IMG/VR virus record: IMGVR_UViG_3300020463_000096
Coordinates: 1-28,637 of that record
Length of the DNA: 28,637 nucleotides
Origin: a virus
Direction: 5' to 3' (one strand)
This document shows, one piece after another, positions 1 through 25,637 of the stretch (the stretch's first letter is position 1; every line of letters begins with the position of its first letter). The position numbers and the translations under genes were made by a program. The notes under the pieces are model-generated. The model made no database searches, was not told where the DNA came from, and saw only the letters and a list, made by a program, of their open reading frames with translations.

Positions 1-206
1 TCTGCTTGTTTTTTTAAATCTTCTCCTTCACCCTTTTTCTGTTGCTGTCTTAATTTATCAAAGTTGCTTTTACCATTTTTTTTCGTGGCTTGGTATAACG
101 TTCCAGCAGCACCAATACCAGTCATCAAAGCAGGTAGTAAAAACTTACTACCTGCTTTTAATCCTAAAGCAGCTACGTTTTCTTGGAATTGATTATATGT
201 TTTCAT
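1..206 (-). CDS. Small protein with capsid-targeting-like N terminus (3' end cut by window)
   Basis: The first 68 residues are visible and the rest lies beyond the window edge. The ATG shares its A with the TAA stop of the upstream 2494-aa virion gene (TAATG), so translation is probably coupled; I see no strong Shine-Dalgarno. The protein begins MKTYNQFQEN. T4 internal head proteins begin MKTYQEFIAE, the capsid-targeting peptide removed by the gp21 protease. A hydrophobic Gly/Ala/Leu stretch follows (about residues 21-42, possibly a membrane or amphipathic helix), then a Lys/Gln/Glu-rich tail. Being last in the visible late structural cluster fits a virion or head-internal role, but that is inference. 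It could also be an unrelated small phage protein that shares only this common start. Confidence 0.75.
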   Translation of the reverse strand, partial: MKTYNQFQENVAALGLKAGSKFLLPALMTGIGAAGTLYQATKKNGKSNFDKLRQQQKKGEGEDLKKQA

Positions 207-7691: not shown

Positions 7692-9305
7692 TTAGAACTC
7701 TAATACGATTTTTATGTCCTCTTTTTGTCGGAGACTTCTATTAATCTCAGGTCTATTATCCAAATAGATAATTTGTCCCGACCCTTTATTTATCTCCGAA
7801 TCAGATAACCCTCCTTGAAATCTAGTTCCTAAATTAATTAATTTAGCACCAGTTGGGTTAGTTGTGATACCTGAAAAATTAACTTGAATAGTACCAGAAA
7901 ATTGAGATGTTAAACCTTTTACAGAGTTTACAGTTGTTCCAGTCTCAAATTCAAAAATTTTTCCTCCTGTACCTACACCAACATAATCAGTGTGATCGTA
8001 GGTAACACCATTAAACTGCAATGATCGATCTCTGAAGTATTTAAGAACCCCAGTAGTCTCATCGTAAGAACTTACATATCCCTTTGCAACTTTTGCAGCA
8101 TTCGGAGGAATTGTAAGTATCTGATTTACTTCCTCACCGACTTTTGGTATCCCCGTTGATTGTCCAGTGTTAGGATCAAGTAAACTTTCTATTTTAATCG
8201 CTTGTAATGATGAAAAAGTATTATCTGTGTAAACAACATTACTATCAATCTTAGTAGGATTCTTAACTATACCTACCTGACCAAATGCAGTATCAGTAGG
8301 AAAATCCTTCGTAGAATCATCAAATCTTGCATAGATTAGAACTTTATCAGTTCCTAATTCTGTATAGATATCATCTCCATGTCCTCTTCTTGGTGGAATT
8401 ATAGGAACTAACTTTGCCTTAACAGTAGAATTTTGATTGCAATCATCTAAATCAACAATACCATATGTATATCCTCTGCCTCCTGCACTAACAGTAGCAT
8501 TTATTATTTTTCCACCATCAATATCAATCCTTGCTTTACCACCTGTACCATCACCTACTATATTCACCTCAAATGATCCATTAGTGTATTTCTGACCTGC
8601 GTTATCAATGTAGATGTGTTTTATTTGATTATTATTAATCTCTGAATTACCATTTTCACGAATAGATCTTATCTGTGCATCGGTGCTGGTTGACCAATTA
8701 TTTGGAACAGATATAAATTCTGTTGAATCAAACTTAATAGTATCACTTGGAGGGACTGTAAATAAGTACTTCCACAAATAACCATCACCACTGTTACCTG
8801 CTTTTGATGGTTCTGTGCCTTCAAAAGTAGGTTCATCCTGTGATACATTACCCAGAAGATTAGAACCATTAGAACCATTATCAATACAGATATAAACTTT
8901 TAACTCAGAGGTTACAACATAATAATTTGCATCATATAATCTATTTGCTTTGGTAATTGGACTTTGATTTTCAGCACTATAATCATCTCTATAAATTTCA
9001 TATCTAGATCCTTGAACCCACTCTACTCTCCTTATCAGTCTTCTTATATTGGCAGATGATACTTTTTTACCAAACATCATCGTATCACCCGTATGTCTCC
9101 TATATGAAAAACTATCGGTTGGTGCTGGTGTTTTTGTATCCCATAATTCATCTCTACCAAAAGTTTTTCCAATATTAGTGCCATCTACCCCAGAAGAATT
9201 AGATAATCCTAAAAATACATAATAAGAATTATTTGTATCCTGCACCGACTCTACAAAATTATTTGCATTTAAAATTCTGAACTGATCAGTAATAATAGCT
9301 GACAT
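7692..9305 (-). CDS. 8: Baseplate wedge protein gp8 (T4 gp8 homologue, enlarged)
   Basis: T4 gp8 is a 334-residue wedge component that binds gp7 and gp10; this version has 537 residues. T4 landmarks appear in order: FGRDELWD with PTDSF (residues 49-65; T4 FGRSEPW and PTDSV), GDGYLWKYLFTVPP (173-186; T4 GDGYVWEYLFEIPP), FGQVGIVKNP (341-350; T4 FRQISIITNP), and a C-terminal GQIIYLDNRPE (from 510; T4 GEMIYMENRPP) ending in an acidic, hydrophobic strand. The extra length lies mainly in two places. One is a GSGY-type beta module at about 232-300 (GQKYTNGSFEV, GGRGYTYG). The other is a segment at about 370-505 between the NP motif and the C-terminal strand. A 48-bp gap holding a TATAAATA late motif precedes the gene, and an AAGGA lies 13 nt before the ATG. 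The gp8 call is strong; the role of the extra modules is unknown. Confidence 0.93.
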   Translation of the reverse strand: MSAIITDQFRILNANNFVESVQDTNNSYYVFLGLSNSSGVDGTNIGKTFGRDELWDTKTPAPTDSFSYRRHTGDTMMFGKKVSSANIRRLIRRVEWVQGSRYEIYRDDYSAENQSPITKANRLYDANYYVVTSELKVYICIDNGSNGSNLLGNVSQDEPTFEGTEPSKAGNSGDGYLWKYLFTVPPSDTIKFDSTEFISVPNNWSTSTDAQIRSIRENGNSEINNNQIKHIYIDNAGQKYTNGSFEVNIVGDGTGGKARIDIDGGKIINATVSAGGRGYTYGIVDLDDCNQNSTVKAKLVPIIPPRRGHGDDIYTELGTDKVLIYARFDDSTKDFPTDTAFGQVGIVKNPTKIDSNVVYTDNTFSSLQAIKIESLLDPNTGQSTGIPKVGEEVNQILTIPPNAAKVAKGYVSSYDETTGVLKYFRDRSLQFNGVTYDHTDYVGVGTGGKIFEFETGTTVNSVKGLTSQFSGTIQVNFSGITTNPTGAKLINLGTRFQGGLSDSEINKGSGQIIYLDNRPEINRSLRQKEDIKIVLEF

Positions 9306-9353: not shown

Positions 9354-12300
9354 TCAACTTAAAACTGCCCTGATTGAACCACTATTTCGATGACCTGTTT
9401 CGCCAGTGCCATCGTAACTTTTTCTTTGAATAGTTGGGAATGTAGAGAGACCAGCATCTACTGTTAATCCAGTTACTCCAATCGAAATAGGATTAGATGA
9501 ACGTTTCAATAAGATTGAAGATGAACCGACATCATTACCATATAATATACCCCAACTCAATTTACCTAATGAAATTGTTTCTCCAATATAATTTGTTTCA
9601 TAATATCCTACTTCATCAATACTATTAAACCAAGAATCAGTATTTGAATGTACATTACATGTGCAAATTCCTTTAGAACCATCAAATGTAATTTCATTAA
9701 CAATATAAACATTATCAAGGAATGTTGTTCCGATACCAACAACATGTGCATCATCAGGATTTACAGATGTTAATCCTTGCCCAACCGTTGTTTCTGTAAT
9801 TAATATAGGATAACCTTTTTTAAGTGAATTAATATCACTCACATTTTCATAACTTCCATCTTCTGCTCTTCTCACCGCATGGAAAGTAAATTTTAATGCA
9901 GGGTCATTAGTACCAGTTCTAGTCGTCGTTCCAATACCTGTTATGATTCCAGTGTATCCTTTGAAATTATCGATTCCTGTAATTTTTTCATACTTGAATG
10001 GAGGACTTTCAATAATTACTTGAGGTGGATTGCTTGAATCATATCCAAGACCTCCATCTGTTATCTGGTCAAAAGCAACTGAACCATTAGAAACTGTAAG
10101 CGTTGCTGTTGCTGTAGTTCCTATACCAACACCAATTCCTGAAGGTGGTGATGCTATTGTTACATTAACTACACCTTCATATCCAGAACCTGCATTTGTT
10201 ATAGTTAAAGAAGAAATAGATTGTTGTGTACCTATTCCAGAAACATTTGCTATTGCAGTTGCAGGAGTATGTATTTCACCTGATGTTACTAATGCATCAA
10301 CAGATTTATCACCAGTGCCATATTTTCTTTCCTCAATGAAGAATGATTCAGCATCATCAACAAAAATACTATTGTCATTTACTCCCATGCCAGAAGTTTC
10401 ATTAAAGTCACCAATTATCTTAGATGTAGGATAAATTTGAGGTTCTAATATAGATCTTGATTTAGGAACTAATGTACCATTAATTTGTAAATCTCGTTTT
10501 TGTTTTGTCCATCTAACTGGTTTTTCATTTATCTGATCGATTCCTAAACCCGTGTAGATATCAGTATCAACTAAATCAGTATTAAGAATTTCTTTTACAA
10601 TTCTCTCATTTTGTTGTGTTGTTGTTATACCAAGTAATTTATTACTCTTAAATACACGAAGACTATCACCAATTTCAATTGATTCTGCAACATTTTGAAT
10701 CTTAACATCTGTATTATCTTTACCCTTATAGAAGTAAATATCAACCTGATCATTATCATTTAAATTTAGACCTGTTTCTCCTTGAGGAGGTTCTTTGAAT
10801 ATAAATGTTGTTCCACCAAAGAATTGATATGATTCACCAGGTTTTTGTAAAACACCGTTGACAAATATAAGTAATACTGCATCTAAATCAATCAGTGAAG
10901 AACGATCTTGTGTTTTATCTACTTCAAAACTTAGCAATTCCCCATTAAAGAATAATGGGAATCTAACTCTTTTGCCATCTTGTAAAAACTTTATGTTATC
11001 AATTGCATCAATCTCACCAAATTGCCAAGAAGAAAATCTATCATTGAATATTTCTAAAACTTCTAATTCAAACTCTTGTATTGGTGCTGATAAATGAGCA
11101 GCAGTTACAAGACCAACAGGTTTAAATTTATCTCCTTTTTTAAATGAATACCCTTCTCTTGCTACTTCAAATTTACTTATTGTAAATAATGTTGAACCAA
11201 TTCCAACTGAGGTCGTTGCTCCACTAACAGCAACATTTAATAATAAATTAGCACCCGTTTCCTCAGTAGATCCAACACCTAATCTAGATATACCTACAAC
11301 TTCAAGATTTTCATATACAGGATCAGGTACAATTATTTGTGGATTTATATATCCAGAACCTGGATTTGCAATTGTAAATGCAAGTGATCCACCTACACCC
11401 ACTGTCGCTGTTACCTCAGCACCTGTACCACCTCCACCACCAGCACCAACATTAACAGTAATTGAATTAGTAGTGACTGAAGTGATTGTTAAAAAGACAT
11501 TATTTGCTGGATCTGTTGCACGAGGATATGGGTGATTGCTAAAATGATTGTCTTTATCACAAGTAAACACTAATGAATCAGTTGCAATTTTTATTTTATT
11601 ACTTGTAGTTAAACCATGCTCTGAAATAATTAATACTAATTCACCAGTTGATGATTCATATATTACATCGGTAGGTGTAAATGTTGAAGTGCTATTTTCA
11701 ACACTAATAGAATTGCTTGATGAACTTACAAATTTGTGTAAGAAATTAATATCAGTAACACCAATAGCAACGGTTCCACCACGATAACCTGATCCGAACG
11801 TTAAATCTTCAAAGAATTCAAATGCATGACCACCACCTTGATAAGTATGTGGTATTGTACTAGCACCTGCCTGTACTTCAAAACTTCTTTCAGATACAAT
11901 ACCAACGACAAATAAAGGTCTTTCATGATCTTGGAAAATAGTTGTTGTAACACCAACATATCCACCACCACCAATTGTTTTAACTGAATCAGTAGCAGCA
12001 GAAACAAATGTATGAACAGATTGATCAGCTGGATCTGATGCACCAACATTAACTTTAAATGTATTAACTGTTTTATTAGTAATTGTAAGATATTGATTAG
12101 CAGCAGGGTCTGTTGAACGAGGATAGCAGTGAGTAGAATTATTACCATCCTTTGCACATGTGAAACATATTGAACCTGTATCAAGAATAACAGCATCACC
12201 CACAACTAATCCATGATTAGGTATTGTGATTGTCAATACTCCAGTAACAGAATTATATGCTGCATTGGTTGGAGTTCCTACCACTGTTTTGGGACATTTA

Positions 12301-15300
12301 AATTCAAGATCTTTTAATTTAACAGTATTAGGACGATTAAGTGAAAATCCATGAACATTATTTGTTGTTACTGTAATAATACCTGATGTATTATCATATA
12401 CAGCAGTTTGAATACCTAACTTTACTCCTGATGATGTACCAATACCTACAATGCTTGTGATTGCACCATTCGTATCTGTAAACGGTTTTACTTTTGCCCC
12501 CAATAATGGTGCATATCCTAATCCTGGTGTTGAACCTAATGATACAATAAGACCACCTCTTGGTATTTGATTTTGATTAATATCCTGCTGAGAAACAAGG
12601 AATGTGCCATCATCCTTAGTAATTCCTGTAAACCTTATTGATGATATTCCAGCAGTTGTATCTGCTGTAATTCTATAATTGTTATTTGTAGAACTTGCTG
12701 TAAATGGTCTTTGGTATACACCATTAATGAATACAACACCATTTCCTACCTCAACACCAGCAGATGTATTTGCTCCTCCTACTTTTAAAGTATAGTTTGT
12801 TGTAAGTCCCGTAAAATTATCAGATATATCATCAAATAACATATTTGTTGTATAATTTTGTCTTGTAAATGTTCTTCCACTGAAGTTTGCTTTTACAAAA
12901 GGTATTTCAGTATCAGTTTTTCTTGATCGTGTATTTCCTTTTGGAGGACTAATAAAATGAACATTACTATCAATAATATTAAATGAACCTCTATGAATTC
13001 TCACAATATCACTAGCATTATGAGGTGTAGCACCAATTCCTAATGATCCTCTTTCAACTCTAACTGTTGGAACTGTTGATAATCCCTCTGATATGTTTTT
13101 CTGATCATCTATTTCTCCGCTTCCATCAGCTGTGCTTGAAAATCCAACTTCTCTTATCTTCATGAATTCTTCATTAATTTTCAATACATCAGATGTGGAT
13201 ATTGAACCAATTCCACTTAATGAAAATTGTGATGTACCTGCACCAATATTAACACTTAATGTATGTGTTAAGGATGTAAAGGTTATTGGTTGCTGTACAA
13301 CACCATCTAATCCAATCATAGTTTTAGATAATTTTTTAGTCATATTCAACTTATGACGATTACCAGAACCTACACCAGTGAAGGTTATCGCAATACCAGA
13401 TGTTATATCATCTTTTGTCGGGAATAATTGAAACTGGTTAATATCACCTAAAAGTTTTACAAAAACAGTTGAGGGTAAAATATCTGTTGTTAGACCAACA
13501 TTATTTACAGTTGAACCAATAGAAACTGGTGTGGCAGCAACACCTACAAAAGATGAACCAGGTGTATATTCTAGTTCCTCATTTGTATTAAAGAAATGAT
13601 TTGGTATTGTAAATATACCTGTTGATTTTTCTAGTCCAACACCATCAGGATCAAAAGTTTTGGTGTAAATTGGTGTTCCTTTATACTTTAATTCAAATTC
13701 TGTTTTATCAGCTCTTTTACCTTCTAAACCATCAAATGCAGATAATAATAGACTTTGAGTTACATTACCATAACTTAAAGGTAATGGATTGTTACTAAAA
13801 TCTTGTTCTGTGTAGAATACCTGATTGTATGCTTGAACTTTAACTTCATCTGTAAACTCTGGATCAGATTTAAACATTAAACTAATATTATCACCAAATA
13901 TTGTAGAGGTAAATGAACCAATTCCTGAAGTTGAACCTAATGAAACATATGGATATTGAACTACTAGAATATCATCAGCATCTCTAATCGCTGTAACTTG
14001 GTGTATTGCAGAAGTTTGTCCCGTAGATACTTTAACTAATGATTTAACTGAACTATCAAATGATTTAAGTCTAGCATATTCAATTAATCCAGTCCCTTCT
14101 TTAAACGTAGATTCAAGTCTTGCACTTCTTTCTGATTCTTCAGGTTGTCCCTGAGCTAAAAATCTATGAGTTCCAATACCAGCGGTTGTAGTTCCTAAAC
14201 CAACTATACTTGATTTTGTGTTTAAATTATTATTTCTGTCATTTTCAATTTGTAATTTAACTAAACCATTTTCCAATTTAGAAGTTATAATTCCAACTTT
14301 ATTTGTAGAAATTCCTATTACATCATCAGAATAAATTTGTGATAAAGATGTATTAACACCATCAAAATCAAGTAAAATTTCATTATAATTATATTCTTTT
14401 GTTACCGTATCTTGTACAAATATATTTGCTTGTAACCCATTGAATTCATCTTTATCAAACTCAAAAATTGATGTTGTGCTATTTGAATTGGCATCTACAT
14501 TAGCACTTACTAACTTGATGCTACCAATTACGTTTGTAGTAGTTCCTAATGTATCAACATCATAAAAGGTTTTTAATATTTTAATGTCATGATCTCTTGT
14601 AAATTGCTCAACAGGTTCAAATAATAGATTTACAATCTCAGTATCTGTCTGTTCAGTTTTAAAATCACCTAGTTTTAAATTACTATCAACACTATTTTCC
14701 CCTATTCCAGCGGTATCACTTGTTTTTTCAAGTAATATAACATCCTCCTCAGTGGTTAAAACAATTATTTCACTTACTTGAGTATCAAATGTATCTGGAT
14801 CTACTACTTGAATAAGATAATTTACAAATCTACCATCTATCTCATCAATAATACTATTATTTGCAGAAAAACCAACGCTTGAAAATCTACTACTAATATC
14901 ATCATGCATCAAAACTCGATTGGATATGCATTTATTGAAGTTAGTTAATTTTTTATTTGAAAATAGAAGTGATTTTGTTTTATTTGAGAGACTTTCATAA
15001 TCTGTTGTATAGTCAAAATTATTAATTGCATCTACTCGATTATCATCACTTACAAGATCTATAGTTAAATTTCTTATTGTTTCACGAGTATCTGCTATCC
15101 CAACTTTTACTTGACTTTGAATGAATGTATCTGCAAAGTTTTTTAATCCAGCAGGATGAAGAATACTGTTAACACTGTTAGAAAATTCATCCCAAGTTAT
15201 AGGACTTTTAATTGAGTATGATAAATTTTGAAAGTAATCGTTATTAGGTATTACCTGTATATCTTCATTTAATTTACCAATATTATCGATCCAACCATAT

Positions 15301-18300
15301 TCTTGACGATTTGAATAATCAATAGAGAAGAAACCTTGATCAGTTTTAAGATCAACTACCTCAGCTGAAACACCTGTTGTTTTACCTGTAATTCTATCAC
15401 CCTTTTTAATTACTTGCAATCCATCTAATTTTATGTAATCATCTCTCGATTCAACAATTGATAAACTTGAATTTTCATTGTTTAAAAGTATTTTTTCATT
15501 TAATTGAAAAGCACCTCTATTCTGAACTGGTTTTAAGTCTGGATATATTTCTTTATTAATTATTGATGCAAATCCAGATTGGAATGACTTAGCAATTCCT
15601 GGATTTGTAGTTACACCTGCAACACTATATTTTACGATTGTTTGAGCACCAGATATATACTCCTCGACTGTAAAGAATGAGAAATTATGATCAGATGAAT
15701 TAAATCCATCTCCCTCTATCTGACCACTTGATGGTATATTTTCTTGATCAAATACTGTCGTTAAACCTTCTTCACCAACTCTTTGTACACCTTCAACAAA
15801 TATTTCATCACCAACTTTAAATGGTTCAGGATCCCCAAACCCATTAAATGGGGTTTGCATGAAACAAACAACTAAACCTTGTGAATCAACAGACATTGAG
15901 TTGATACCAATTCCGTTTGAATTATTAATTGCAAATATTTGATGTGGTACAGAATCTAAACCATGAATAGGTGCTATTAATTGAACAGATGCAATTGTTT
16001 GGTTTGGAGATGAAGGTAACAATGTAGAATCATCTATAATTTCTTTTGTAATTGAATTTACAAGAATTAAATCTGGTGGTGTGGTATAATCAGAACCACC
16101 ATTAACAATTTCAATACCAGAAATAGTGTCTAAATTATCAATATTTAAAATTTGAGGTACAAAAACTTCTGGTTGAAGTGTCTTATCAGATGAATATTCA
16201 TAACCTATATCCAATATTCTTGTTTTATTAATTTTACCTATATTTTTAGATTCAATTACTAAATTAGCATTTATACCCTCTTCTGATAAAACCTTATTAA
16301 ATTCAGGTAATTTTTTATAATTAAATCCTTTTGAAATAATTTTTAATTTTTTAATACCACCTTTTACATTTTTTGATTTTGTTGAGTATTCAATTTTTTC
16401 GCAATCTGTATCCTGATACTCTAAAAATTCAGGTAATTTTGGTGAGAAATTAAATGTCTCTGATGTAACTCCAGATATCTTATATTGACCATTGTAAATA
16501 CTATCAACAAAAACAATTTCAGAATAATTTTTTACATCATTATCTGCTGTGCTAATAAATCCACCCTTAGTAAGACCATAGTATAATACTGGTGGTGTGG
16601 AAACACTTGGTTGTAATGTTAAAAAGGCACCTTCAATATCATTTTCATCTGTTCCTAAACCAACAGTACCCGCTACACCAACATTAAATATCGATGAATC
16701 TTGAGAACTTAAAAATTCATTACTGCCATTTTGGTAAAATATTTTAAAATCAAATCCAGCAAGAGTTGTTGTTGATAATCCAAACTTAATTTTTGAATTT
16801 TTATAGACCTTAATTTGAGGGTTTATTGGGGATATATTCTGTTCATTTCCTCCTGTATTAGGATCTATATCAATTAATTTTATTGGATTTGCAAATAAAT
16901 CATTGTGTGTCTCTGCTAATTGGAAATATTTGCTATTAATTTTATTTACAAAGTAAGAACCCGTTCCTAAACCAGCACTTCCTTCATAAAATACCTTATC
17001 ACCAGTAGCAAACCCATGAGTTTCTATACCGATTCTATTTGTCTCTACATTTGAACTTGTAAATTTAATTGGATTAATTAATAATTTATCAAATTGAGAA
17101 TTATAATTTACTTCAACAGGAACTGTTGTTCCTATTCCAACTGTTAAGTTGGGCACAACATTAATATTAACAATATCACCATTTTGTAAATTATGTGTTG
17201 TTGTTTCAGCAGCTGCAACTTTTGTTGTTAAAGTGCTTACAATTTTTTCAACGGTGCCAGTTACTTGTTCATATTGTGATGAAATATTATAAAGAAAAGT
17301 TGATAATCCTACAACAGAACTACCATTAGAATTAAAATATAATCCTTCACTAGTATTCCCAACACTAACTGTTGAAAGACCAATGTAATTTTCACTCTTT
17401 TTAATAACAAACAATTCTATTTCAGTATCAAATGTACCAAATGGTATTGCAAAATTATTAGTTGTATCATTAGGATCATCAGTGGTAGCCACATCTATTT
17501 GTCTGTTTGGAACAGGTGGAACCGTAAATAACACTTTTTGTCCAGTTTTAAATGGATGATTTGGTAGATATATTTGTCTATTCGGTATTGAAACCTCTTT
17601 AATAGTTTCACCAATAACATAATTAGTGCTTATTCCGACTCCATCTGTACCAACTCCAATCGATTGAAGTGTGTTAAAATATACTATATCATTGACTTGT
17701 GAATTAAATGATGGTGTTTTTACTGGAATAGTAATTGTATTGTTTAGTAAATCAACATTTGAACCAAATGTATGCCCTATTCCATTAATACGTCTTAATG
17801 AACGAATTATTTTTTGATCATCATAAAAATTTAATACTTCAATTATTTCATCATCTAAGGCATTTCCAGAACCAACTCTAATACTACTACCTACTGAAAT
17901 ATTTTTTGGCAATTGGTTAACAAAAATATCTTCAATAGCACTAGTTAATCCAACAACACTCATACTTTTTGCCAAAGCAACACGAGAAGTAGTAACACCT
18001 ACCTTAAATGAATCTGTCAAATTTTGTATTGATGTACTTAAACCAGAAACAAATACAAAATCTTGGTCATTTAGTTCAATAAACGGTTTGTAATTACCAA
18101 TTACTGCATCTTGATTCAATCTTGTAAATACTACATCCTCAAATCTATCCAATGTAGTTACAATACTGGAGACTCCTAAACCAATTATTTCACTAACCTC
18201 GGCTCTAAAACCCTGACCATTCGTATCTGTCTCATCAAAGGAAGTAAGATCACCAACTTTGTAATTAGAACCAGTATTTAATATTTTAATATCATCAATT

Positions 18301-21300
18301 TCACCCTTTGTAACTGATATTACTTCTGCTGTTTGTAAAGAATTTTCATTTGATTCGATTAAGAAATCATTATCTGCAAATTTCTCTCCAACATTATATG
18401 GATAGGTATTTCTTTTTAAATTTGAATTATTAAAATCAAAATCATGATCTAATGTTAAATTGTCTTGAATCAAAGGTGATCTAAAAGTTCTTCCTATAAA
18501 GTAAGGATATGTACCAATAATTTTATCATTATTATCTAATTCAACAGTGGTAAAATAAGCATATATTCCGTTAGGAAATTCTGGTGTTTTACAAAATCTT
18601 CCATTGTGAATATCTAAATCACCTGATTTATCAAAGATAAAATCACTAACAAAGAAACCACCATCAAATCCAACAGGTCTATTTTTAACTTTACTTGTAT
18701 CTTTAACATAGGAAGATTTTAAAAGTTTTAATTCTGAATTAATATTATCTGGGTTAGAGTATCCAGATGGACCATAAATTGGATTACCGTCATATGCCCA
18801 ACCTATAATTGGAGAATGATTTTGTGGTGAGTTATTTACTAATTCAAAATTATCATCTTCTAAATTTTGTAATAATGTTTCATCACAACTTAAAACGTTA
18901 AAACTTAAAAAATCTTTCCTTGGTATTAATGTTGAATGACCCTCTCTGATATACTCATTTAATTTCAAACTTCTTATAGAAGAATTAAATGTACCATTTA
19001 TTCCTCTTGATACAACATCTGCGGTTGTAGTTGCTTCATCGTACCCTATACCAGTACTAATTATAATTACATCTGTTAACTTACCATCGGTTATAACAGG
19101 TCTTACAATCGCTCCTGCACCCTCACCAGAGGACATAATTCTTATCTCTGGAATAGAATTATATTCCATCCCCTGATCTAATATTTGTACATCAATTATT
19201 TTGCCATTTTGAATTATTGGTTTTACGCCACCCAATCTACCATTTAGTATATCAACTTTTGGATTAGATATATTATTTACTATTGTTGAACCATAATCTG
19301 TGCCCTCCTCATATAGATAAGCACCAATGAATGATCCAGTAATTATGGGAGTAGTATTAAATGTTCCATTTACATTACCATTATAGACAACTTCTATATC
19401 AACTTTGGCATCTGGATATTTAAAAGTTTGATATCCAGTTCCAGTTGAATTTAATCCAACAAATTTTCTTCTATCAAAATCTACTCTTGAAGTACCACCT
19501 ATTCCTGCATCTGCTAATCTAAATGAATTATCATCTACTTTAATAACATAGTAAGAAGATGTGATATCTAATCCCTCAATTGCTTTTGGTATTGTAGAAC
19601 CAATACCAACTGCTGGTGAATAATTTACTATATCGCCATTTTTAAATCCATGACTAGTAAAATTAACAGTATCAAAGGAGGTTGATATACCACTTGGTTT
19701 TACAAATAATTTACGATGTTGGTATCCACTACCAGAATTAATTACATTAATACTTGTTATAGTGTTTTTTGACTCTGTTCTAAAATAATGAGTACCTGTT
19801 GCAGAAGAATCTGTCGCTAATCCAACTGTATTAATTCCAGCAATACCAGTTAATGCGTCATTTTTTTTATTAAAAATTCTGATGGTTGTTGGATTAACAA
19901 CTCGACAAAAATATGGATCTGAATTTGCTAATGCTCCTTTAATTTCATTTAATGCATCATAAGGATCACCAATACCAAGAGAACTATTGCCATTATTTTG
20001 ATAATAAATTACCTGACCATTTTCTAATTTATGTTCTGTATTAAATGTGATAGTTTCATTTTCAATATCTACACCACCACCAAATTTAAAATCTCTGGCA
20101 ACAAAATATATCTCTCTAAATCTTGCTCCAACACTTGCTTCTAATTCACATCCATTACCATTTAATCCAGTTAGTGATATACTTTTTACAGATTTGATAT
20201 CGAATTCTTGTGGATCAATTAAAACTTCTTTGACTGAACCACTTAAAATTGGTTCAAGTAATGCACTTGTAGCAGCACCAACAGTGTGAGCAACACCTGG
20301 TTCAACAACTAACTTAGGTGGATTAATTATATCATACTGCTCACCACTGTTTAATAAATTTACTGAGGATAAGTTTCCATAACTAACAAAATCTTCTGAT
20401 AAAGGAGATCTTATCTCAACACCATTTTTTAATATTCCAATATCATTAATAGTTTCATCATTTGTAGATATATCAATTAAATTTTGTGATAAAGGAAATT
20501 TCCTCAAAATTTTATTCGCACTTATCTTTTTACCATGATGCCTCAATAAAGTGAATGTATGTAAGTCTTTTGTTGAAATACCTAAACCAACTTGTATCGT
20601 ACTAGCAGTTCCGATCTGACCTCTTGAATTGTAAAGGGCTATTTTTGTTATATTTGAATTAACTGGTGCTGGTTGTGGGTCAACATAATAAACTCTACTA
20701 TCTTCTAAACCTATTGGTATTTCACCGAGAGTTTCATTACTGTTTGAAAGTGGATCCTTGATTGAGTTATAAACAACAGCATCTCCCTGTTTAAATTTTA
20801 TATCCCTATTTTCACTAAAATTAAATTGTATGATACTATATAATCCAGTTATGGGATCTTTACTACTTTCATCAAATGAAAAATCTTCCGTAGTATCTGC
20901 AATTCCAACAAGTGTTTCTTTTATAATATCCTCAGTTATGTCAAAATCTGGGAGTGAATTAGAAGCAACATAACCAAAATTATCACCATCAACATATAAG
21001 TTTAATATATTTGAAATAATTTTTTCATTTCCTTCTTTTATCTCTACATTTGTGCTTATTGTTTTATCGATTACTCTACGAATATCATACAACCCTGATG
21101 GAGTAGATGTATATGATAAGTTAGTAGCTAAAAATTGATTTGAATTTTGTATAATATCAACATTAAACGAACCAAGAATATTTTGACTATTTCTATTTAA
21201 AATATTAAATTTGTCACCCTTTTTAAGAGAAGATTTATCAATTGATGTATTTAAGGTTATAGTTGATCCAGATATCTCTATAACTTGAAATCTTGAACTA

Positions 21301-22652
21301 GTATTATAAACCCATGAATTAGCAAATTTTTGTTTATAAGATTTTCCATCATTTAATATTTTCTGACCAAGATTTTTTACTATTATATTTTCACCCTCAT
21401 TAATCAGATTTACGTCATCATCTAATACTAATTCATTTAAAACACCTGTTATTCTTAATTCAATTTTTTTCGATAAATCACCATTTTCATAACCAAAAAT
21501 ATTATCACTTGATTGAATATTATCAGTAATTTGGATTGGTTCATTAATACCTGTACATCCAAAGAATTGATTTACAGATTTAGATGTATAGTTAATTGTA
21601 TTATTGCCACTGATTAATATTCCTGTCTTAGCAAATCCGACTGTCGAATCAACAGATATAATACTATCAGTTGTAGATACATCTGATAAAACTTTTGAAT
21701 TTGGATTAACTTTAAATATTCCCTGTATTAAATCTCTATCACTATAACCTACAAATAAAGATATACGATATAATGATTTTCCTTCTTTGGTTAATATTTC
21801 AACTTGAGATACTGATGCATTTGTTTCAAGATCATCACTTTTATAAATTGTCTGTCCAATTAATTTTTGTGGGTCTGCATCTGGTGTAATTAGATCGGCA
21901 ATTATTACTTCTCTTCTTATAAATTCTGCACCAGATGGTTTGATTAAAAATTTTTCAAGGTCAAGTATTGTAGAATCAACACCATATAATACTTTGAATA
22001 ATATTTTAATTGATTCTTCTATACCTTTTGATTGATAAAAAGAACGTGCAAATTTAACAAAATTACCAACATCTAAGTCAGATGTAAATTGTGAATCTTC
22101 AAAACCAGGCAAAAATGTTTTCTTTAATTTTTTGTAAAATTCTTGTATGAATAATACAGATAGGTTTTGAACATCACTTCCATCTACATGATCATTTGCT
22201 GTTGTTTCTTCAAAAGTTATTCTCTCTTTATTAACATCAATTAAAGATGATGATACACCAACATTATATCCAGTAATTCCACTAAATCCACGCAAACAAC
22301 CTGTAAATGATGTGGTTGTAATGCCAGTATAAGAAATTATCTCATCGTCAATTTTAAGTAATCCATACTCATCAGGAAACCCTTTTGTACTTGTGACATT
22401 GATTGTTGTATGTGTAGACGCAACACCAGCAGAAACATTTGTCTTTCCTGTAACAACTTCTGGTACAAGGTTATCACTTTTTAAATATTGGTCTAAATTA
22501 CTGATTAAATCAGTTGGACCTCCTTGAAATTCCTGAGAGATATAATATTGTTTTAAAAATTCAACAGCAAAAGGAAAATCACTTGTCACAAACTCTGGTA
22601 AGTGATTTTCAATAATTGTATTAACTTTTATTCTTTTGTCAAATTGTGACAT
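9354..22652 (-). CDS. 7: Giant gp7-like baseplate wedge protein (4432 aa) with interrupted gp7 core
   Basis: T4 gp7 (1032 aa) links gp6, gp8 and gp10 in the baseplate wedge. Here the first ~330 residues resemble a late part of T4 gp7: LPEFVTSDF, then SKGIEESIKILFKVLYG (around 208-224; T4 TKGIEASYKFLFKVLYN), LIGQTIY (264-270; T4 LVGQTIY) and a strand around L308. The next T4 landmark (KIKSNLPSSRW ... FVHPVGF) appears only at 2475-2501 (SIKSPITWDEF ... ILHPAGL). About 2100 residues are therefore inserted, and about 1900 follow. The T4 N-terminal two-thirds is not apparent. Inserted and appended parts include a YHYH-type domain (1279-1391), several GSGY modules, three NGV.Q.P-like elements (near 3116, 3310 and 3932) and a duplicated Cys/His module (C3499, C3698). 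The gene lies between gp6 and gp8, as gene 7 does in T4. Its GAGAGG ribosome site is 9 nt before the ATG, and three bases separate it from the gp6 stop. Confidence 0.88.
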   Translation of the reverse strand: MSQFDKRIKVNTIIENHLPEFVTSDFPFAVEFLKQYYISQEFQGGPTDLISNLDQYLKSDNLVPEVVTGKTNVSAGVASTHTTINVTSTKGFPDEYGLLKIDDEIISYTGITTTSFTGCLRGFSGITGYNVGVSSSLIDVNKERITFEETTANDHVDGSDVQNLSVLFIQEFYKKLKKTFLPGFEDSQFTSDLDVGNFVKFARSFYQSKGIEESIKILFKVLYGVDSTILDLEKFLIKPSGAEFIRREVIIADLITPDADPQKLIGQTIYKSDDLETNASVSQVEILTKEGKSLYRISLFVGYSDRDLIQGIFKVNPNSKVLSDVSTTDSIISVDSTVGFAKTGILISGNNTINYTSKSVNQFFGCTGINEPIQITDNIQSSDNIFGYENGDLSKKIELRITGVLNELVLDDDVNLINEGENIIVKNLGQKILNDGKSYKQKFANSWVYNTSSRFQVIEISGSTITLNTSIDKSSLKKGDKFNILNRNSQNILGSFNVDIIQNSNQFLATNLSYTSTPSGLYDIRRVIDKTISTNVEIKEGNEKIISNILNLYVDGDNFGYVASNSLPDFDITEDIIKETLVGIADTTEDFSFDESSKDPITGLYSIIQFNFSENRDIKFKQGDAVVYNSIKDPLSNSNETLGEIPIGLEDSRVYYVDPQPAPVNSNITKIALYNSRGQIGTASTIQVGLGISTKDLHTFTLLRHHGKKISANKILRKFPLSQNLIDISTNDETINDIGILKNGVEIRSPLSEDFVSYGNLSSVNLLNSGEQYDIINPPKLVVEPGVAHTVGAATSALLEPILSGSVKEVLIDPQEFDIKSVKSISLTGLNGNGCELEASVGARFREIYFVARDFKFGGGVDIENETITFNTEHKLENGQVIYYQNNGNSSLGIGDPYDALNEIKGALANSDPYFCRVVNPTTIRIFNKKNDALTGIAGINTVGLATDSSATGTHYFRTESKNTITSINVINSGSGYQHRKLFVKPSGISTSFDTVNFTSHGFKNGDIVNYSPAVGIGSTIPKAIEGLDITSSYYVIKVDDNSFRLADAGIGGTSRVDFDRRKFVGLNSTGTGYQTFKYPDAKVDIEVVYNGNVNGTFNTTPIITGSFIGAYLYEEGTDYGSTIVNNISNPKVDILNGRLGGVKPIIQNGKIIDVQILDQGMEYNSIPEIRIMSSGEGAGAIVRPVITDGKLTDVIIISTGIGYDEATTTADVVSRGINGTFNSSIRSLKLNEYIREGHSTLIPRKDFLSFNVLSCDETLLQNLEDDNFELVNNSPQNHSPIIGWAYDGNPIYGPSGYSNPDNINSELKLLKSSYVKDTSKVKNRPVGFDGGFFVSDFIFDKSGDLDIHNGRFCKTPEFPNGIYAYFTTVELDNNDKIIGTYPYFIGRTFRSPLIQDNLTLDHDFDFNNSNLKRNTYPYNVGEKFADNDFLIESNENSLQTAEVISVTKGEIDDIKILNTGSNYKVGDLTSFDETDTNGQGFRAEVSEIIGLGVSSIVTTLDRFEDVVFTRLNQDAVIGNYKPFIELNDQDFVFVSGLSTSIQNLTDSFKVGVTTSRVALAKSMSVVGLTSAIEDIFVNQLPKNISVGSSIRVGSGNALDDEIIEVLNFYDDQKIIRSLRRINGIGHTFGSNVDLLNNTITIPVKTPSFNSQVNDIVYFNTLQSIGVGTDGVGISTNYVIGETIKEVSIPNRQIYLPNHPFKTGQKVLFTVPPVPNRQIDVATTDDPNDTTNNFAIPFGTFDTEIELFVIKKSENYIGLSTVSVGNTSEGLYFNSNGSSVVGLSTFLYNISSQYEQVTGTVEKIVSTLTTKVAAAETTTHNLQNGDIVNINVVPNLTVGIGTTVPVEVNYNSQFDKLLINPIKFTSSNVETNRIGIETHGFATGDKVFYEGSAGLGTGSYFVNKINSKYFQLAETHNDLFANPIKLIDIDPNTGGNEQNISPINPQIKVYKNSKIKFGLSTTTLAGFDFKIFYQNGSNEFLSSQDSSIFNVGVAGTVGLGTDENDIEGAFLTLQPSVSTPPVLYYGLTKGGFISTADNDVKNYSEIVFVDSIYNGQYKISGVTSETFNFSPKLPEFLEYQDTDCEKIEYSTKSKNVKGGIKKLKIISKGFNYKKLPEFNKVLSEEGINANLVIESKNIGKINKTRILDIGYEYSSDKTLQPEVFVPQILNIDNLDTISGIEIVNGGSDYTTPPDLILVNSITKEIIDDSTLLPSSPNQTIASVQLIAPIHGLDSVPHQIFAINNSNGIGINSMSVDSQGLVVCFMQTPFNGFGDPEPFKVGDEIFVEGVQRVGEEGLTTVFDQENIPSSGQIEGDGFNSSDHNFSFFTVEEYISGAQTIVKYSVAGVTTNPGIAKSFQSGFASIINKEIYPDLKPVQNRGAFQLNEKILLNNENSSLSIVESRDDYIKLDGLQVIKKGDRITGKTTGVSAEVVDLKTDQGFFSIDYSNRQEYGWIDNIGKLNEDIQVIPNNDYFQNLSYSIKSPITWDEFSNSVNSILHPAGLKNFADTFIQSQVKVGIADTRETIRNLTIDLVSDDNRVDAINNFDYTTDYESLSNKTKSLLFSNKKLTNFNKCISNRVLMHDDISSRFSSVGFSANNSIIDEIDGRFVNYLIQVVDPDTFDTQVSEIIVLTTEEDVILLEKTSDTAGIGENSVDSNLKLGDFKTEQTDTEIVNLLFEPVEQFTRDHDIKILKTFYDVDTLGTTTNVIGSIKLVSANVDANSNSTTSIFEFDKDEFNGLQANIFVQDTVTKEYNYNEILLDFDGVNTSLSQIYSDDVIGISTNKVGIITSKLENGLVKLQIENDRNNNLNTKSSIVGLGTTTAGIGTHRFLAQGQPEESERSARLESTFKEGTGLIEYARLKSFDSSVKSLVKVSTGQTSAIHQVTAIRDADDILVVQYPYVSLGSTSGIGSFTSTIFGDNISLMFKSDPEFTDEVKVQAYNQVFYTEQDFSNNPLPLSYGNVTQSLLLSAFDGLEGKRADKTEFELKYKGTPIYTKTFDPDGVGLEKSTGIFTIPNHFFNTNEELEYTPGSSFVGVAATPVSIGSTVNNVGLTTDILPSTVFVKLLGDINQFQLFPTKDDITSGIAITFTGVGSGNRHKLNMTKKLSKTMIGLDGVVQQPITFTSLTHTLSVNIGAGTSQFSLSGIGSISTSDVLKINEEFMKIREVGFSSTADGSGEIDDQKNISEGLSTVPTVRVERGSLGIGATPHNASDIVRIHRGSFNIIDSNVHFISPPKGNTRSRKTDTEIPFVKANFSGRTFTRQNYTTNMLFDDISDNFTGLTTNYTLKVGGANTSAGVEVGNGVVFINGVYQRPFTASSTNNNYRITADTTAGISSIRFTGITKDDGTFLVSQQDINQNQIPRGGLIVSLGSTPGLGYAPLLGAKVKPFTDTNGAITSIVGIGTSSGVKLGIQTAVYDNTSGIITVTTNNVHGFSLNRPNTVKLKDLEFKCPKTVVGTPTNAAYNSVTGVLTITIPNHGLVVGDAVILDTGSICFTCAKDGNNSTHCYPRSTDPAANQYLTITNKTVNTFKVNVGASDPADQSVHTFVSAATDSVKTIGGGGYVGVTTTIFQDHERPLFVVGIVSERSFEVQAGASTIPHTYQGGGHAFEFFEDLTFGSGYRGGTVAIGVTDINFLHKFVSSSSNSISVENSTSTFTPTDVIYESSTGELVLIISEHGLTTSNKIKIATDSLVFTCDKDNHFSNHPYPRATDPANNVFLTITSVTTNSITVNVGAGGGGGTGAEVTATVGVGGSLAFTIANPGSGYINPQIIVPDPVYENLEVVGISRLGVGSTEETGANLLLNVAVSGATTSVGIGSTLFTISKFEVAREGYSFKKGDKFKPVGLVTAAHLSAPIQEFELEVLEIFNDRFSSWQFGEIDAIDNIKFLQDGKRVRFPLFFNGELLSFEVDKTQDRSSLIDLDAVLLIFVNGVLQKPGESYQFFGGTTFIFKEPPQGETGLNLNDNDQVDIYFYKGKDNTDVKIQNVAESIEIGDSLRVFKSNKLLGITTTQQNERIVKEILNTDLVDTDIYTGLGIDQINEKPVRWTKQKRDLQINGTLVPKSRSILEPQIYPTSKIIGDFNETSGMGVNDNSIFVDDAESFFIEERKYGTGDKSVDALVTSGEIHTPATAIANVSGIGTQQSISSLTITNAGSGYEGVVNVTIASPPSGIGVGIGTTATATLTVSNGSVAFDQITDGGLGYDSSNPPQVIIESPPFKYEKITGIDNFKGYTGIITGIGTTTRTGTNDPALKFTFHAVRRAEDGSYENVSDINSLKKGYPILITETTVGQGLTSVNPDDAHVVGIGTTFLDNVYIVNEITFDGSKGICTCNVHSNTDSWFNSIDEVGYYETNYIGETISLGKLSWGILYGNDVGSSSILLKRSSNPISIGVTGLTVDAGLSTFPTIQRKSYDGTGETGHRNSGSIRAVLS
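11400..12275 (-). repeat. Duplicated Cys/His module inside the gp7-like gene
   Basis: Two copies of one module lie 597 bp (199 residues) apart. Copy 1 (about 11990-12275) carries HGLVVGDAV, then FTCAKDGNNSTHCYPRSTDP and YLTIT...VNVGA. Copy 2 (about 11400-11665) carries HGLTTSNKI, then FTCDKDNHFSNHPYPRATDP and FLTIT...VNVGA. DNA identity persists around the YPR..DPA codons, where + strand tctgttg(c/a)acgaggata occurs in both, which suggests a fairly recent duplication. The conserved Cys, Asp and His could bind metal, but this is not shown. Boundaries are approximate. Confidence 0.85.
18480..18818 (-). other. YHYH-type domain segment within the gp7-like protein
   Basis: Residues about 1279-1391 contain GWAYDGNPIYGPSGY, then DLDIHNGRFC, FPNGIYAYFTT and YPYFIGRTF. 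These match the family called YHYH (an Asp-Gly-x-Pro-Ile-Tyr-Gly-Pro core, then an NGR block, an x-P-x-G-x-Y-A-Y block and a final Y-F-x-G). The family is known in secreted and phage proteins and its function is not established. The domain lies inside the segment that interrupts the gp7 core. Confidence 0.75.
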
Positions 22653-22655
22653 AAA

Positions 22656-24650
22656 TTATTGCCTCTCTAAAACACCATTTGAATAACTTGAAGTGAAGTA
22701 ATCTCTTGTAAATACAACACCTGAAACATCCTCTCCTGATGCAATAACGTCTTTCAACATATTTATCGAACTATTTGAAACGTCTAAACTTACAAATAAA
22801 TCTTTCAATCCAACTACATCATTTGATTCTGGGAATGCCTGTATCTCAATTATATTATTTTGTGCGATAGTAGAGGTAATATTAATTGTATTCAAAATTA
22901 TCTCACCCTTTCTATAATCAACAGAACCTGCTGCTTTGCGAAGAACATTCACGTTATTTTTTTCATCTCTTGTTACAACACTAATTGTACCCTTCATACT
23001 TCCATCAAGTTTACCAGATACGTCTTTATTGGGTATGTCTGTCAAATATGCAGTTGAAGTGCTTCCAGAAATTGTAAATCCAGTGCTCTTAATATTAAAA
23101 CCAGCAGGATTAATATGGAATTTATTTCCAAAACATAACTCATATTGAGCAAATTGATTTAGAAGTGCTTTTAAATCTCTTCTTATGATAACTTTGGTAA
23201 TATTTGATGTAATAGCATCATTAACTCTATCAATTAATTGATTTACCTTACTATACTTAAATCTTCCTCCAAATCGATTCATCTCAACATTATTGGCATA
23301 GTTTTGTAATGCATTTATAATATCTGATCTTAAATTAATTGATGAACCAACTTTTACAGGGTCATAGTATACCTTTGAATCAATTTCTACATATAATATT
23401 TTTAAATCGACTATTTCAGAATTAATACCTGCTATTGCATAACTTTTTAATTTATTTTTAATTTGTGATTTATCAAAATCAGAGACAAAAGTACCATTTT
23501 TTGGTTTAATACTAATTTGTACGGTTCCAAATTGTGGAGGATTTAACTCCTCACCTCCGATTACTGAAACAGAGTCAGTTCTTGGATAAATTTCATTAAT
23601 GATTGCCTCATAATCTCTTGGTGTAACTGCTCTATATTGTGCTGAGTAAAGTCTTGGTGCAAAATACTTAATAGAAGACACATCTTCAACTTCTGACCCA
23701 TTGGAGGCGTTTGAAATAGTTGTAACCGTAACCGTATCTGATGGTGTTAAAAAAGATCCATCATCTTTTGAAAATGTTCCTTGAAAATCAAAATTATTTG
23801 GTCCGTTTCCATCTTTTCCATCAGTAACAATATAAGTTGCAAGAATTGTTGATCCATTATCTAATTTTTTACCAAAAAATCCATCACCGAACAAAATTTC
23901 TATTTTTTCATCCTGAACTTCTTGTGCAAGATAAATTTCTGAATTTTTATCTAATTTTAGTATATTATCAACTCGTGAATACTTTCGACCAATTGTAACT
24001 TGGTTTGGATCTGCAACATAAACATTCATTGTTGATGCATCGATGCCTGGACTATCAATAATAAATCTTTGGTCTATTGATGTATTAACTCTATATGTAC
24101 GTGTTAGATATGTTCCTTCATAAATTGATATTTCATCACTAAATTGAGCAAAAGAGTGGTTTATAGGGTTTCCATTTACATCTAGAAAAGGATTTCCATC
24201 ATTATCAACACCTCGACTTACAATTTTAGTTGATGTAATATTTTCGGGGATTGAAAATCTAAAAGTGGTATTTTCAACACTACCAACACAAATAAGACCA
24301 GATCTTAATGTTAAAATTCTTGGTGTTGCATCTGAGGTTTCTCCAAGATCGACATCATTTATTTTTATTCTTGCGATTGCTGCTCTTTTTGACCGTGGAA
24401 CATAACCAATGTTTCTTGCAAGTGAAACAACGTTCTCACGTATTTTTGCAGAATCTAAAAATGATTCATTTGCAACTAAATTTGCATTAAATGCATTAAT
24501 ATAGGTATTATATGCTAAGGTATCAATTAAAACAGAAAAATTAGAACCTTCAAAATCAAAATCTTTGAAATTTGAGTTTGAGCGAAGAAAATCTTTAATT
24601 TGTGCTTTGATATCTTCAAAGTCTAAACTAGTGTATTGTGTGAAGGGCAT
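22656..24650 (-). CDS. 6: Baseplate wedge protein gp6 (T4 gp6 / baseplate J-like)
   Basis: gp6 forms the iris-like inner ring of the T4 baseplate by dimerising between neighbouring wedges. The length, 664 residues, is almost that of T4 gp6 (660). The N terminus (YTSLDFEDIKAQIKDFLRSN, then FSVLIDTLAYNTYINAFNAN and a block with ENVVSLARNIGYVPRSKRAA) is typical of gp6/J-like wedge proteins. A central J-like segment has AVTPRDYEAIINEIYPRTDS, followed by QFGTVQISIKPKNG. Position supports the call: it lies directly downstream of gp25, with one base between the gp25 stop and this ATG, and directly upstream of the gp7-like giant. Only a weak ribosome site is visible, so coupling to gp25 translation is likely. 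Unlike its neighbours, it shows no added repeat modules. Confidence 0.95.
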   Translation of the reverse strand: MPFTQYTSLDFEDIKAQIKDFLRSNSNFKDFDFEGSNFSVLIDTLAYNTYINAFNANLVANESFLDSAKIRENVVSLARNIGYVPRSKRAAIARIKINDVDLGETSDATPRILTLRSGLICVGSVENTTFRFSIPENITSTKIVSRGVDNDGNPFLDVNGNPINHSFAQFSDEISIYEGTYLTRTYRVNTSIDQRFIIDSPGIDASTMNVYVADPNQVTIGRKYSRVDNILKLDKNSEIYLAQEVQDEKIEILFGDGFFGKKLDNGSTILATYIVTDGKDGNGPNNFDFQGTFSKDDGSFLTPSDTVTVTTISNASNGSEVEDVSSIKYFAPRLYSAQYRAVTPRDYEAIINEIYPRTDSVSVIGGEELNPPQFGTVQISIKPKNGTFVSDFDKSQIKNKLKSYAIAGINSEIVDLKILYVEIDSKVYYDPVKVGSSINLRSDIINALQNYANNVEMNRFGGRFKYSKVNQLIDRVNDAITSNITKVIIRRDLKALLNQFAQYELCFGNKFHINPAGFNIKSTGFTISGSTSTAYLTDIPNKDVSGKLDGSMKGTISVVTRDEKNNVNVLRKAAGSVDYRKGEIILNTINITSTIAQNNIIEIQAFPESNDVVGLKDLFVSLDVSNSSINMLKDVIASGEDVSGVVFTRDYFTSSYSNGVLERQ

Positions 24651-24651
24651 A

Positions 24652-25053
24652 TTATCTTGTTGGTTCTAATATGAAAGTGAAGGATTGAGTTGGAACATCT
24701 AACCCAACAATATCAAAAAGCACTCTTATCTCTATTTCATTTAAATCTGGTCTTCCAGTTACCTCGACACCGACATTTGCTACTCTTGGTTCAAAATTAT
24801 TAATGGTTTCTCTGATTTGGTCTTCAATTACGTAAACTGTCGTTCTTGAAAAATTTTCAAACAAAGAATCACGTACATCTGTACCTATCACAGGGTTAAA
24901 AAACCGTTCAGTCGGAATAGTTTCTACTAAATTTCTCACAGATCTGGCAATTGCACGTTGATTTATGAGAACAGGTAAGTCTTTTGTTACTGGATGAGGT
25001 AAAAAAGACAAACTTATATCCTTAAATGGTATTGAAGTGCGTTGAATCGCCAT
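24652..25053 (-). CDS. 25: Baseplate wedge protein gp25 (gpW/gp25 family)
   Basis: T4 gp25 (132 aa) is a wedge protein that contacts gp6 and the sheath and helps trigger sheath polymerisation. This protein has 133 residues. It carries the family hallmark Glu-Pro-Arg (EPR, residues 88-90, in NNFEPRV), preceded by the expected helical region (AIARSVRNLVETIPTERFF ... GTDVRDSLFENF). It ends in beta strands as the family does. It is the first gene of the late baseplate operon. A TATAAATA late motif lies 18 nt before its ATG, giving a very short leader with only a weak purine-rich site. One base separates its stop from gp6. Confidence 0.96.
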   Translation of the reverse strand: MAIQRTSIPFKDISLSFLPHPVTKDLPVLINQRAIARSVRNLVETIPTERFFNPVIGTDVRDSLFENFSRTTVYVIEDQIRETINNFEPRVANVGVEVTGRPDLNEIEIRVLFDIVGLDVPTQSFTFILEPTR

Positions 25054-25201: not shown

Positions 25202-25637
25202 AGTCGTCCTCTAATACTTCTTTTAGGTAGTTTTCGTCCCAATAATCATAATAATCGGTTTTTGCAAGATTTTTCCTTGATTGAGTCAGTTCTTTTCGTA
25301 ATTGACAAAGGACTAAGTTATATTTTCCGTTACTTGTTTGGATTCCTTGGATATATGTCTTTGTTTTTCCATGATCTGCGATGAATTTGTAGTCAGGATA
25401 GTTACGATTATAGTCATCAACAGCATCATACAGAAATTCTGCTTCAAGATTGTCTTCAACTATGTAAATTATAACCTCAAACTTGGGATCTGGCACTATT
25501 CGATGTAATTTTTCTTCTTGAATACTAAAATTAGCACCTAATGCAAAGGGACAGATACTAAAATTACCCAATTCTGGTCTTTTAATGGATAATTGACCAA
25601 TCCAATGTAAAATATACCTACTTTTCCTTTCGTTCAT
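25182..25637 (-). CDS. Conserved phage hypothetical protein (151 aa)
   Basis: I do not recognise a domain. The protein starts MNERKSRYILHWIGQLSIKR, has a hydrophobic strand FEVIIYIVED in the middle and KYNLVLCQLRKEL towards the end, and finishes with a Tyr/Asp/Glu-rich tail. I recall similar proteins of unknown function next to baseplate genes in marine T4-like phages, which is memory and not a search. The ATG at 25637 is chosen because it overlaps the upstream gene by only 20 bp. An in-frame GTG at 25670 would add 11 residues and raise the overlap to 53 bp. No convincing Shine-Dalgarno precedes either start, so reinitiation after the upstream gene is likely. Confidence 0.8.
   Translation of the reverse strand: MNERKSRYILHWIGQLSIKRPELGNFSICPFALGANFSIQEEKLHRIVPDPKFEVIIYIVEDNLEAEFLYDAVDDYNRNYPDYKFIADHGKTKTYIQGIQTSNGKYNLVLCQLRKELTQSRKNLAKTDYYDYWDENYLKEVLEDDYGIIRD

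Follow-up and report, generated by a model that had tools for sequence, protein, structure and literature searches.

A gp7 orthologue with its core split by a giant insertion in a Kyanoviridae cyanophage

T4 has six copies of gp7, each of 119 kDa by the account in PMC3004832. One gp7 and two gp6 copies make up the conserved core of the wedge. The gp7 orthologue of Vibrio phage XM1, gp17, totals 242 residues, with the tail spikes attached at an internal loop (80-106) and at the C-terminus (201-242) (PMC10457771, in the part available). Since gp17 is that short, we argue that the N-terminal ~640 residues of T4 gp7 do not define the wider family. In a table of the DLP6 paper, the percentages for gp7 in comparisons with other phages of the T4 superfamily are in single or low double digits (PMC5349666, in an excerpt that lacks the column heads). 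Sullivan 2010 places gp7 in the non-cyanophage core (PMC3037559), and a 2020 paper states, in the passage concerned, that cyano- and pelagiphages lack gp7 and have VrlC in its place (PMC7029224). GenBank nevertheless labels a giant protein as gp7 or baseplate wedge initiator in P-SSM2, P-HM1, S-RIM8 and S-SRM01, and other records label the giant as a fibre, structural or hypothetical protein. We found no account of a split gp7 core in the open-licence literature and no baseplate structure of a marine Kyanoviridae phage in the literature searched.

The window analysed here, a virus record, is 28,637 bases long and has a structural gene cluster on the minus strand, and every window feature given below lies on that strand (-). 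A 4432-aa ORF (9354-22652), with an ATG start and no internal stops, matches phrog_2885 'baseplate wedge subunit' over residues 4-4411 and PF23786 (Baseplate_wedge) at residues 192-228, the latter under the family cut-off. It is flanked on one side by the baseplate wedge genes gp6 (22656-24650, 664 aa; phrog_219, PF21379) and gp25 (24652-25053, 133 aa; phrog_261, PF04965), and on the other by the wedge gene gp8 (7692-9305, 537 aa; PF09215, phrog_438) and a VrlC-like protein with DUF4815 (206-7690, 2494 aa; PF16075, phrog_358). The gene order is 25-6-X-8, where X is the 4432-aa ORF in the place that gp7 has in the T4 order 6-7-8. P-SSM2, P-HM1 and S-SRM01 have the same 25-6-X-8 order. The order does vary: in S-RIM8 the giant is followed by a gene labelled gp9 and a hypothetical gene before gp8, and in syn9 a gp10-like gene comes directly after the giant gp7. 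The window gp8 is 62.4% identical to that of P-SSM2, and residues 5-344 of the ORF are 69.7% identical to the giant of the single-cell virus AG-345-E02; these two near named relatives are both Salacisavirus, Kyanoviridae. We identify the ORF as gp7, the baseplate wedge initiator, of a P-SSM2-related cyanophage in the Kyanoviridae. A nucleotide search of its gene against the phage collection gave no match, and a single-sequence PDB search with the whole ORF gave only chance matches to ribosomal proteins. We considered an assembly chimera and rejected it, since other contigs have the same plan, for example L175 (4319 aa) and L218 (4435 aa).

Some neighbouring genes deserve a word of their own. 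Genes at the VrlC place are labelled VrlC in P-HM1, VriC in S-SRM01 and hypothetical in P-SSM2. In S-CREM2 the gene at that place, gp124, comes right after gp8 (L240:9777-17783, 8007 nt) and is labelled hypothetical; the portion of the virion-proteome table in PMC10665884 that was available makes no mention of it. Elsewhere in the window, a 218-aa ORF (25618-26274) matches PHROG 3704 'ferredoxin' (1.8e-105) with no Pfam family above cut-off, and a 149-aa ORF (26262-26711) has a weak match, E 0.0028 and under cut-off, to PF04377, the C-terminal domain of arginyl-tRNA-protein transferase.

The published view that cyanophages and pelagiphages have no gp7, which appears in them to be substituted by VrlC (DUF4815; PMC7029224, in the passage available), is contradicted, and we give it next to no credence, because gp7 HMMs match the ORF between gp6 and gp8 and not VrlC: HTVC008M gp055 is matched by s1 (iE 4e-25) and s2 (iE 1.3e-19), as are P-SSM2 gp7 and S-CREM2 gp122, the VrlC ORF of HTVC008M has no gp7 HMM match at domain E 0.1, and Stenotrophomonas phage Ps15 has both VrlC and a compact gp7.

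The preliminary description of this stretch claimed that landmarks adjacent in T4 gp7 are pulled apart in this ORF. With the T4 gp7 sequence taken from the T4 genome record for comparison, KGIE at 209, IGQTIY at 265 and LHPAG at 2498 are where they were said to be; IKSPITW starts at 2481, not at 2475. We distinguish three core segments. The first, s0 (22455-22652, residues 1-66), is a predicted N-terminal helical hairpin recognised by its HMM and modelled as helices with pLDDT 41-62. The second, s1 (21708-22160, residues 165-315), holds the KGIEESIKILFKVLYG motif (208-224) and the start of the beta-barrel, and BLASTP and profile alignment place it on T4 gp7 724-813. The third, s2 (15063-15317, residues 2446-2530), runs from NDYFQNLSYSIKS to LHPAG and is recognised by HMM and profiles. 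The homology of s1, the first of the two segments that flank the insertion, is evident from pairwise BLASTP, where residues 205-270 align with T4 gp7 734-787 at E=2e-5. The core segment KG[IST]E...LF..L[YF] is present in the window ORF (hhalign prob 97), and a profile of window residues 1-700 finds gp7 as its only PDB match at E<=0.1 (E=0.0017). The compact profile A2 finds gp7 in the PDB at E=7.6e-10.

The second flanking segment, s2, needs more argument. In pairwise BLASTP residues 2481-2519 align with T4 866-904 at 20 bits and E 3.9, which is chance level, and a giant-only s2 profile is weak against T4-type gp7 (prob 18-46). Both results favour a reading in which gp7 ends at residue 315, the second landmark is a coincidence, and everything after residue 315 is an unrelated structural protein fused to it. 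We think this very improbable, and we reject it on several grounds. Searching with the second segment by tblastn located two compact gp7s, in Ps15 (503 aa) and Ochrobactrum phage OC (631 aa), both in the same gp6-gp7-gp8 order; s2 matches the OC and Ps15 proteins at E 4.7e-8 and 1.4e-7 in pairwise BLAST, and at 3e-4 and 2e-3 in the whole phage collection. OC gp7 92-311 aligns in one piece to T4 733-923, and OC 61-114 and 232-279 match window 170-226 and 2466-2513. When 97 overlapping 90-aa tiles of a 17-giant alignment were compared with a 10-sequence T4-type gp7 profile, the five best were 181-270, 136-225, 2431-2520, 2476-2565 and 226-315. Three of these cover the first segment and two the second, each aligning colinearly with T4; for the tiles of the second segment the probability goes no higher than 18%, against 3% for the best tile outside the two regions. 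A1, a second-segment profile of 8 sequences, two of them compact gp7s, scores 47.8 (prob 81.7) against the T4-type profile at T4 gp7 810-903, and the maximum among 200 column shuffles of A1 is 23.7. Against all PDB sequences its top match is the gp7 of a KP1-type phage (E=3.2e-4, chain residues 848-922), with the T4 gp7 chain second (E=0.047). A1 is also the evidence that the IKS...HPxG segment after the barrel is present in the window ORF. Finally, the order of the two segments is the same wherever both occur (178/178 among the matches listed). We accept the second segment as gp7 because the tile test, the PDB profile search and the column shuffles support it. Two Pseudomonas phage records also match this segment in the tblastn search of the phage collection.

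The profile comparison with gp7 that was proposed at the outset therefore comes out in favour of gp7, which both segments' profiles find first among PDB chains. Gene place, BLASTP, profiles and conserved segment order together support both parts of the original claim, orthology to gp7 and a very large insertion that splits its core. The absence of the T4 N-terminal part was also correctly noticed: no counterpart was found for the first ~640 T4 residues, and A2 aligns from T4 643. The s0 HMM is common to the giants and the compact gp7s. Comparing giant s0 with T4 alone, window residues 14-33 land on T4 649-668 at a score that is not significant. The length claimed for the part after the core, about 1900 residues, agrees with our count of 1902 (4432-2530).

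The plan of this protein can be followed through other phages. We took 221 loci from viral contigs using single proteins as queries; two of the four locus lists are the best 80 of 125 confirmed stretches and the best 80 of at least 591, and the sample leans towards the queries because the best matches come first. The three HMMs were run on 1241 ORFs of 230 loci and the window. Among the matches listed, 223 ORFs have s1, 189 have s2 and 178 have both, with s1 before s2 in every one of the 178, a count that is not one of independent cases, since the seed phages and the window are among them and some contigs occur in duplicate. At three further loci with gp7 giants, outside the 178, s1 and s2 lie in different ORFs (L219, L109, L132); sequencing errors and real splits are both possible there. 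The s1-s2 spacing, again among the matches listed, falls into classes of 21-31, 84-184, 262-371 and then 2035-2634 residues. The most compact gp7s are in the first class and the cyanophage giants in the last, and the window has 2132. Ten T4-type gp7s have spacings of 87-105, although the same HMMs catch only part of the T4-type core. Two named phages lie between the classes, HTVC008M gp055 with 467 and S-CREM2 gp122 with 1624. Divided at a spacing of 1000, the listed matches comprise 90 giants and 88 shorter forms, numbers that carry the same seeds, window and duplicate contigs and so are not independent either. In a core tree of 101 of 189 rows, left after redundancy filtering, the giants are basal among the non-T4 rows and three changes are needed, in a short search in which several long branches meet. 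The insertion plan is common to related cyanophages, and shorter insertions occur at the same place in other phages. In the window the core is reduced to the part corresponding to T4 ~640-920, and about 2,030-2,130 residues interrupt it.

One of these genes carries a different label. HTVC008M gp055 (L243:11436-14486; NC_020484 33435-36485) is annotated 'head closure Hc2', yet its place is between gp6 and gp8 and it carries s0, s1 and s2. In the same genome, none of four other genes bearing the label baseplate wedge initiator is matched by the gp7 core HMMs at domain E 0.1.

By the profile alignments, the predicted breakpoint lies in or just after the gp7 beta-barrel, at T4 ~814-865. A model of window residues 1-700 (pLDDT 71.3, pTM 0.45; core helices pLDDT 41-70) has only 2 PDB matches at E<=0.001 by Foldseek, both gp7s, with T4 gp7 at E 1.4e-4 for the whole model. 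In VIA, model residues 244-414 match the T4 gp7 barrel 761-853 with Z 8.4 and rmsd 3.4 over 87 residues, just above the VIA caution level of Z 8. The higher-ranked VIA rows for this model concern other parts, 66-165, 316-384 and 316-528. Residues 316-384 (21501-21707) would form a further small beta domain, either within the barrel or following it, that matches 9n71_A (Z 9.5, 69 residues). Residues 385-414 (21411-21500) supply strands that VIA places in the T4 gp7 barrel; this is ambiguous, and they are an alternative end of the first half. In this model the barrel match is complete by residue 414 and needs nothing from the second half. The large insertion may thus start at about 320 or at about 415, and the window model does not decide between them because it is a model without the second half.

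A natural intermediate offers a view of both halves at once. The gp7 at L038:3625-5217 has 531 aa and a 271-residue spacing, and its model (pLDDT 76.7, pTM 0.53) has only 3 PDB matches at E<=0.001 by Foldseek, all of them gp7s; the whole model matches no other solved structure at E 0.001. Its small-barrel match, 136-451, extends from before to after the insertion, over 69 residues with rmsd 2.8 A and Z 5.5, which is under the caution level of 8. Residues 1-458 match T4 gp7 639-852 with Z 10.8 over 152 residues, but the rmsd is 23 A because parts are shifted, and it is for this reason that we quote the barrel match beside it; both ranges are the first and last aligned residues only. The HPAG helix has pLDDT 48-72 and lies beyond the aligned range. 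We find the model suggestive of a single barrel built from both sides of the insertion. The L038 insertion itself (model residues ~206-300 and 350-450) has pLDDT mostly >90.

The added material falls into three parts. At site A, between the core helices, residues 67-164 (22161-22454) appear to form a small beta domain: model 66-165 matches phage GP4 8jov_1 (Z 10.1, rmsd 1.9, 75 residues) and the JBD30 baseplate 8rk3_b (Z 9.6). Compact and intermediate gp7s that have s0 show a site A spacing of -5 to 3 (among the matches listed); most giants have about 90-100 residues there, and syn9 and S-RIM8 have about 600. The giant insertion proper is residues 415-2440 (15333-21410). It had been called beta-rich, and it is predicted to be so in the modelled part, residues 415-700. 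Inside it is a YHYH domain (18537-18836, residues 1273-1372; PF14240, E=2.3e-24, 86.9 bits against a cut-off of 25, profile positions 87-184 of 193). By a search based on the window, and among the matches listed, YHYH is found in 90/90 giants and 0/88 shorter gp7s. Homologous blocks of the insertion run largely in the same order in the window and in the distant giants P-HM1, syn9 and S-RIM8, with some off-diagonal repeat matches. The C-terminal extension, residues 2531-4432 (9357-15062), is not colinear between the window and distant giants, and we regard it as separable because it is absent in S-CREM2 gp7, which ends 8 residues past the second segment. GxGY occurs per 1000 aa at 2.14 in giant insertions, 1.92 in giant C-terminal extensions and 5.69 in shorter-form insertions, and at 0-0.07 in cores and in the tails of short forms.

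An enzyme role for the window YHYH domain is doubtful. According to the part available of PMC7824862, YHYH domains are predicted metal-dependent hydrolases whose metal site consists of three histidines and an aspartate. In residues 1265-1400 the only histidines are H1279, kept in 113/118 rows, and H1349, whose conservation is under 95%; the first profile position covered by the Pfam match is 87. With two histidines in that stretch, one of them poorly conserved, we doubt catalysis. The stretch that seems to correspond to what we take to be the name-giving YHYH motif reads YAYF in the window gp7.

Proteome data bear on whether such proteins reach the virion whole. S-CREM2 ORF122, which we identify as gp7 by HMM, has 1937 aa and is in the virion proteome with 91 unique peptides and 27.2% coverage, by the table in PMC10665884 as available. 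S-SZBM1_208, labelled 'baseplate wedge initiator', has 6619 aa, 724 kDa and a virion proteome coverage of 13.5% (PMC9146016, in a table excerpt that lacks the column heads). We count it as a related giant gp7 on its label, its size and its gene number beside a wedge subunit; S-SZBM1 205 (615 aa) bears the same label in that source. These data are relevant to the possibility that the insertion is made and then removed or cut, intein-like or by a protease, so that the virion holds a near-normal gp7. The tables as available give counts and coverage rather than peptide positions, which leaves room for processing, as does the hydrolase prediction for YHYH in one paper (PMC7824862, in part). However, the coverage of S-CREM2 gp7 far exceeds a few hundred core residues, 13.5% of the S-SZBM1 protein is likewise covered, the three Pfam matches at E<=0.1 in the window ORF include no intein and no other protease family, and the insertion sequence is conserved among giants. 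We consider processing of this kind quite improbable.

Our preferred explanation is that the window ORF is a gp7 orthologue whose core is split by an insertion, that its two halves would come together again and join two gp6 copies in the usual (gp6)2-gp7 wedge core, and that the insertion would in consequence loop out as a large beta-rich arm. We are quite confident of this explanation as a whole. Each gp7 would give one arm, six per baseplate, placed where other contractile phages hang their host-binding parts, with the YHYH domain and the repeat units as surface modules. By analogy with XM1, the insertion and the C-terminal extension would form large outer arms at the baseplate periphery, and if T4 stoichiometry holds there would be six chains of about 490 kDa by our own arithmetic. 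The insertion most likely serves as a scaffold at the outside of the baseplate, in contact with receptor-binding parts or carrying them, and host contact, or carrying such parts, would be the likeliest use of the arm. The strongest challenge is that the insertion is a passive spacer, lineage-specific padding with no role in host contact. Its repeat-rich character (2.14 GxGY units per 1000 aa, compared with 0 for the core) fits this, and so does a YHYH match with only two histidines where three are described (PMC7824862, in the part available). Padding sits less easily with largely colinear homologous blocks that persist between distant giants (the window against P-HM1, syn9 and S-RIM8), or with YHYH in every one of the 90 giants among the matches listed. 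We think it unlikely, though a reading to be taken seriously. More speculatively, the gp7 barrel of T4-like phages could be a single insertion site at which a lineage grew (or lost) a megadalton-scale covalent outer baseplate. Its six arms, on chains of ~490 kDa each, would take over from spikes encoded by separate genes as the layer with which marine cyanophages first touch the host. We offer this idea tentatively and at present lean against it.

The preliminary description also suggested that the insertion might replace peripheral T4 baseplate proteins. This is not supported, because two compact-gp7 phages, Ps15 and OC, lack the same ones: neither shows gp9/10 or gp11. Among the seven genomes searched, gp53 is in 7/7 and gp11 is in T4 alone (1/7), with none in the 6 non-T4 genomes, Ps15 and OC included. 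The gp9/10 domain is in 3/7, namely T4, syn9 and S-RIM8, and the last two have the largest gp7s of the non-T4 genomes searched.

T4-like cyanophages are widespread marine viruses, and knowing where the wedge core lies within a 4,000-6,000-aa protein tells cryo-EM groups what to dock. This work contradicts a published claim that gp7 is absent and corrects the label of an HTVC008M gene. Since natural insertions into one core are graded, with spacings from 21 to 2634, how far a nanomachine tolerates such growth and what use it makes of it become testable.

Compared with T4 gp7 (the wedge initiator, 1032 aa; PDB 5IV5, 5HX2), the window protein has the same place between gp6 and gp8, the same core motifs in the same order and a fold match. 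It differs in that its core is split by ~2,100 residues, ~1,900 are added after the core, and the N-terminal ~640 residues of T4 gp7 are not found in it, the alignments starting near T4 640. P-SSM2 gp7 (5195 aa) and the AG-345-E02 protein (4990 aa) have the same plan, with spacings of 2145 and 2155 and about 50% identity over residues 5 to ~3735, but a longer C-terminal extension than the window's. The gp7s of Ps15 and OC are like the window's in having a reduced core without the T4 N-terminal part and with both segments; they differ in spacing (173 and 22), in the residues after the core (51 and 335) and in having no YHYH. S-CREM2 gp122 (1937 aa) and HTVC008M gp055 (1016 aa) share the insertion site of the window gp7; gp122 has YHYH matches of its own, as the window does, but no C-terminal extension. 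In XM1 gp17 an internal loop and the C-terminus likewise leave the core and hold host-contact parts, but that loop is 27 residues that bind separate spikes (PMC10457771, in the part available), whereas the window has a giant covalent insertion.
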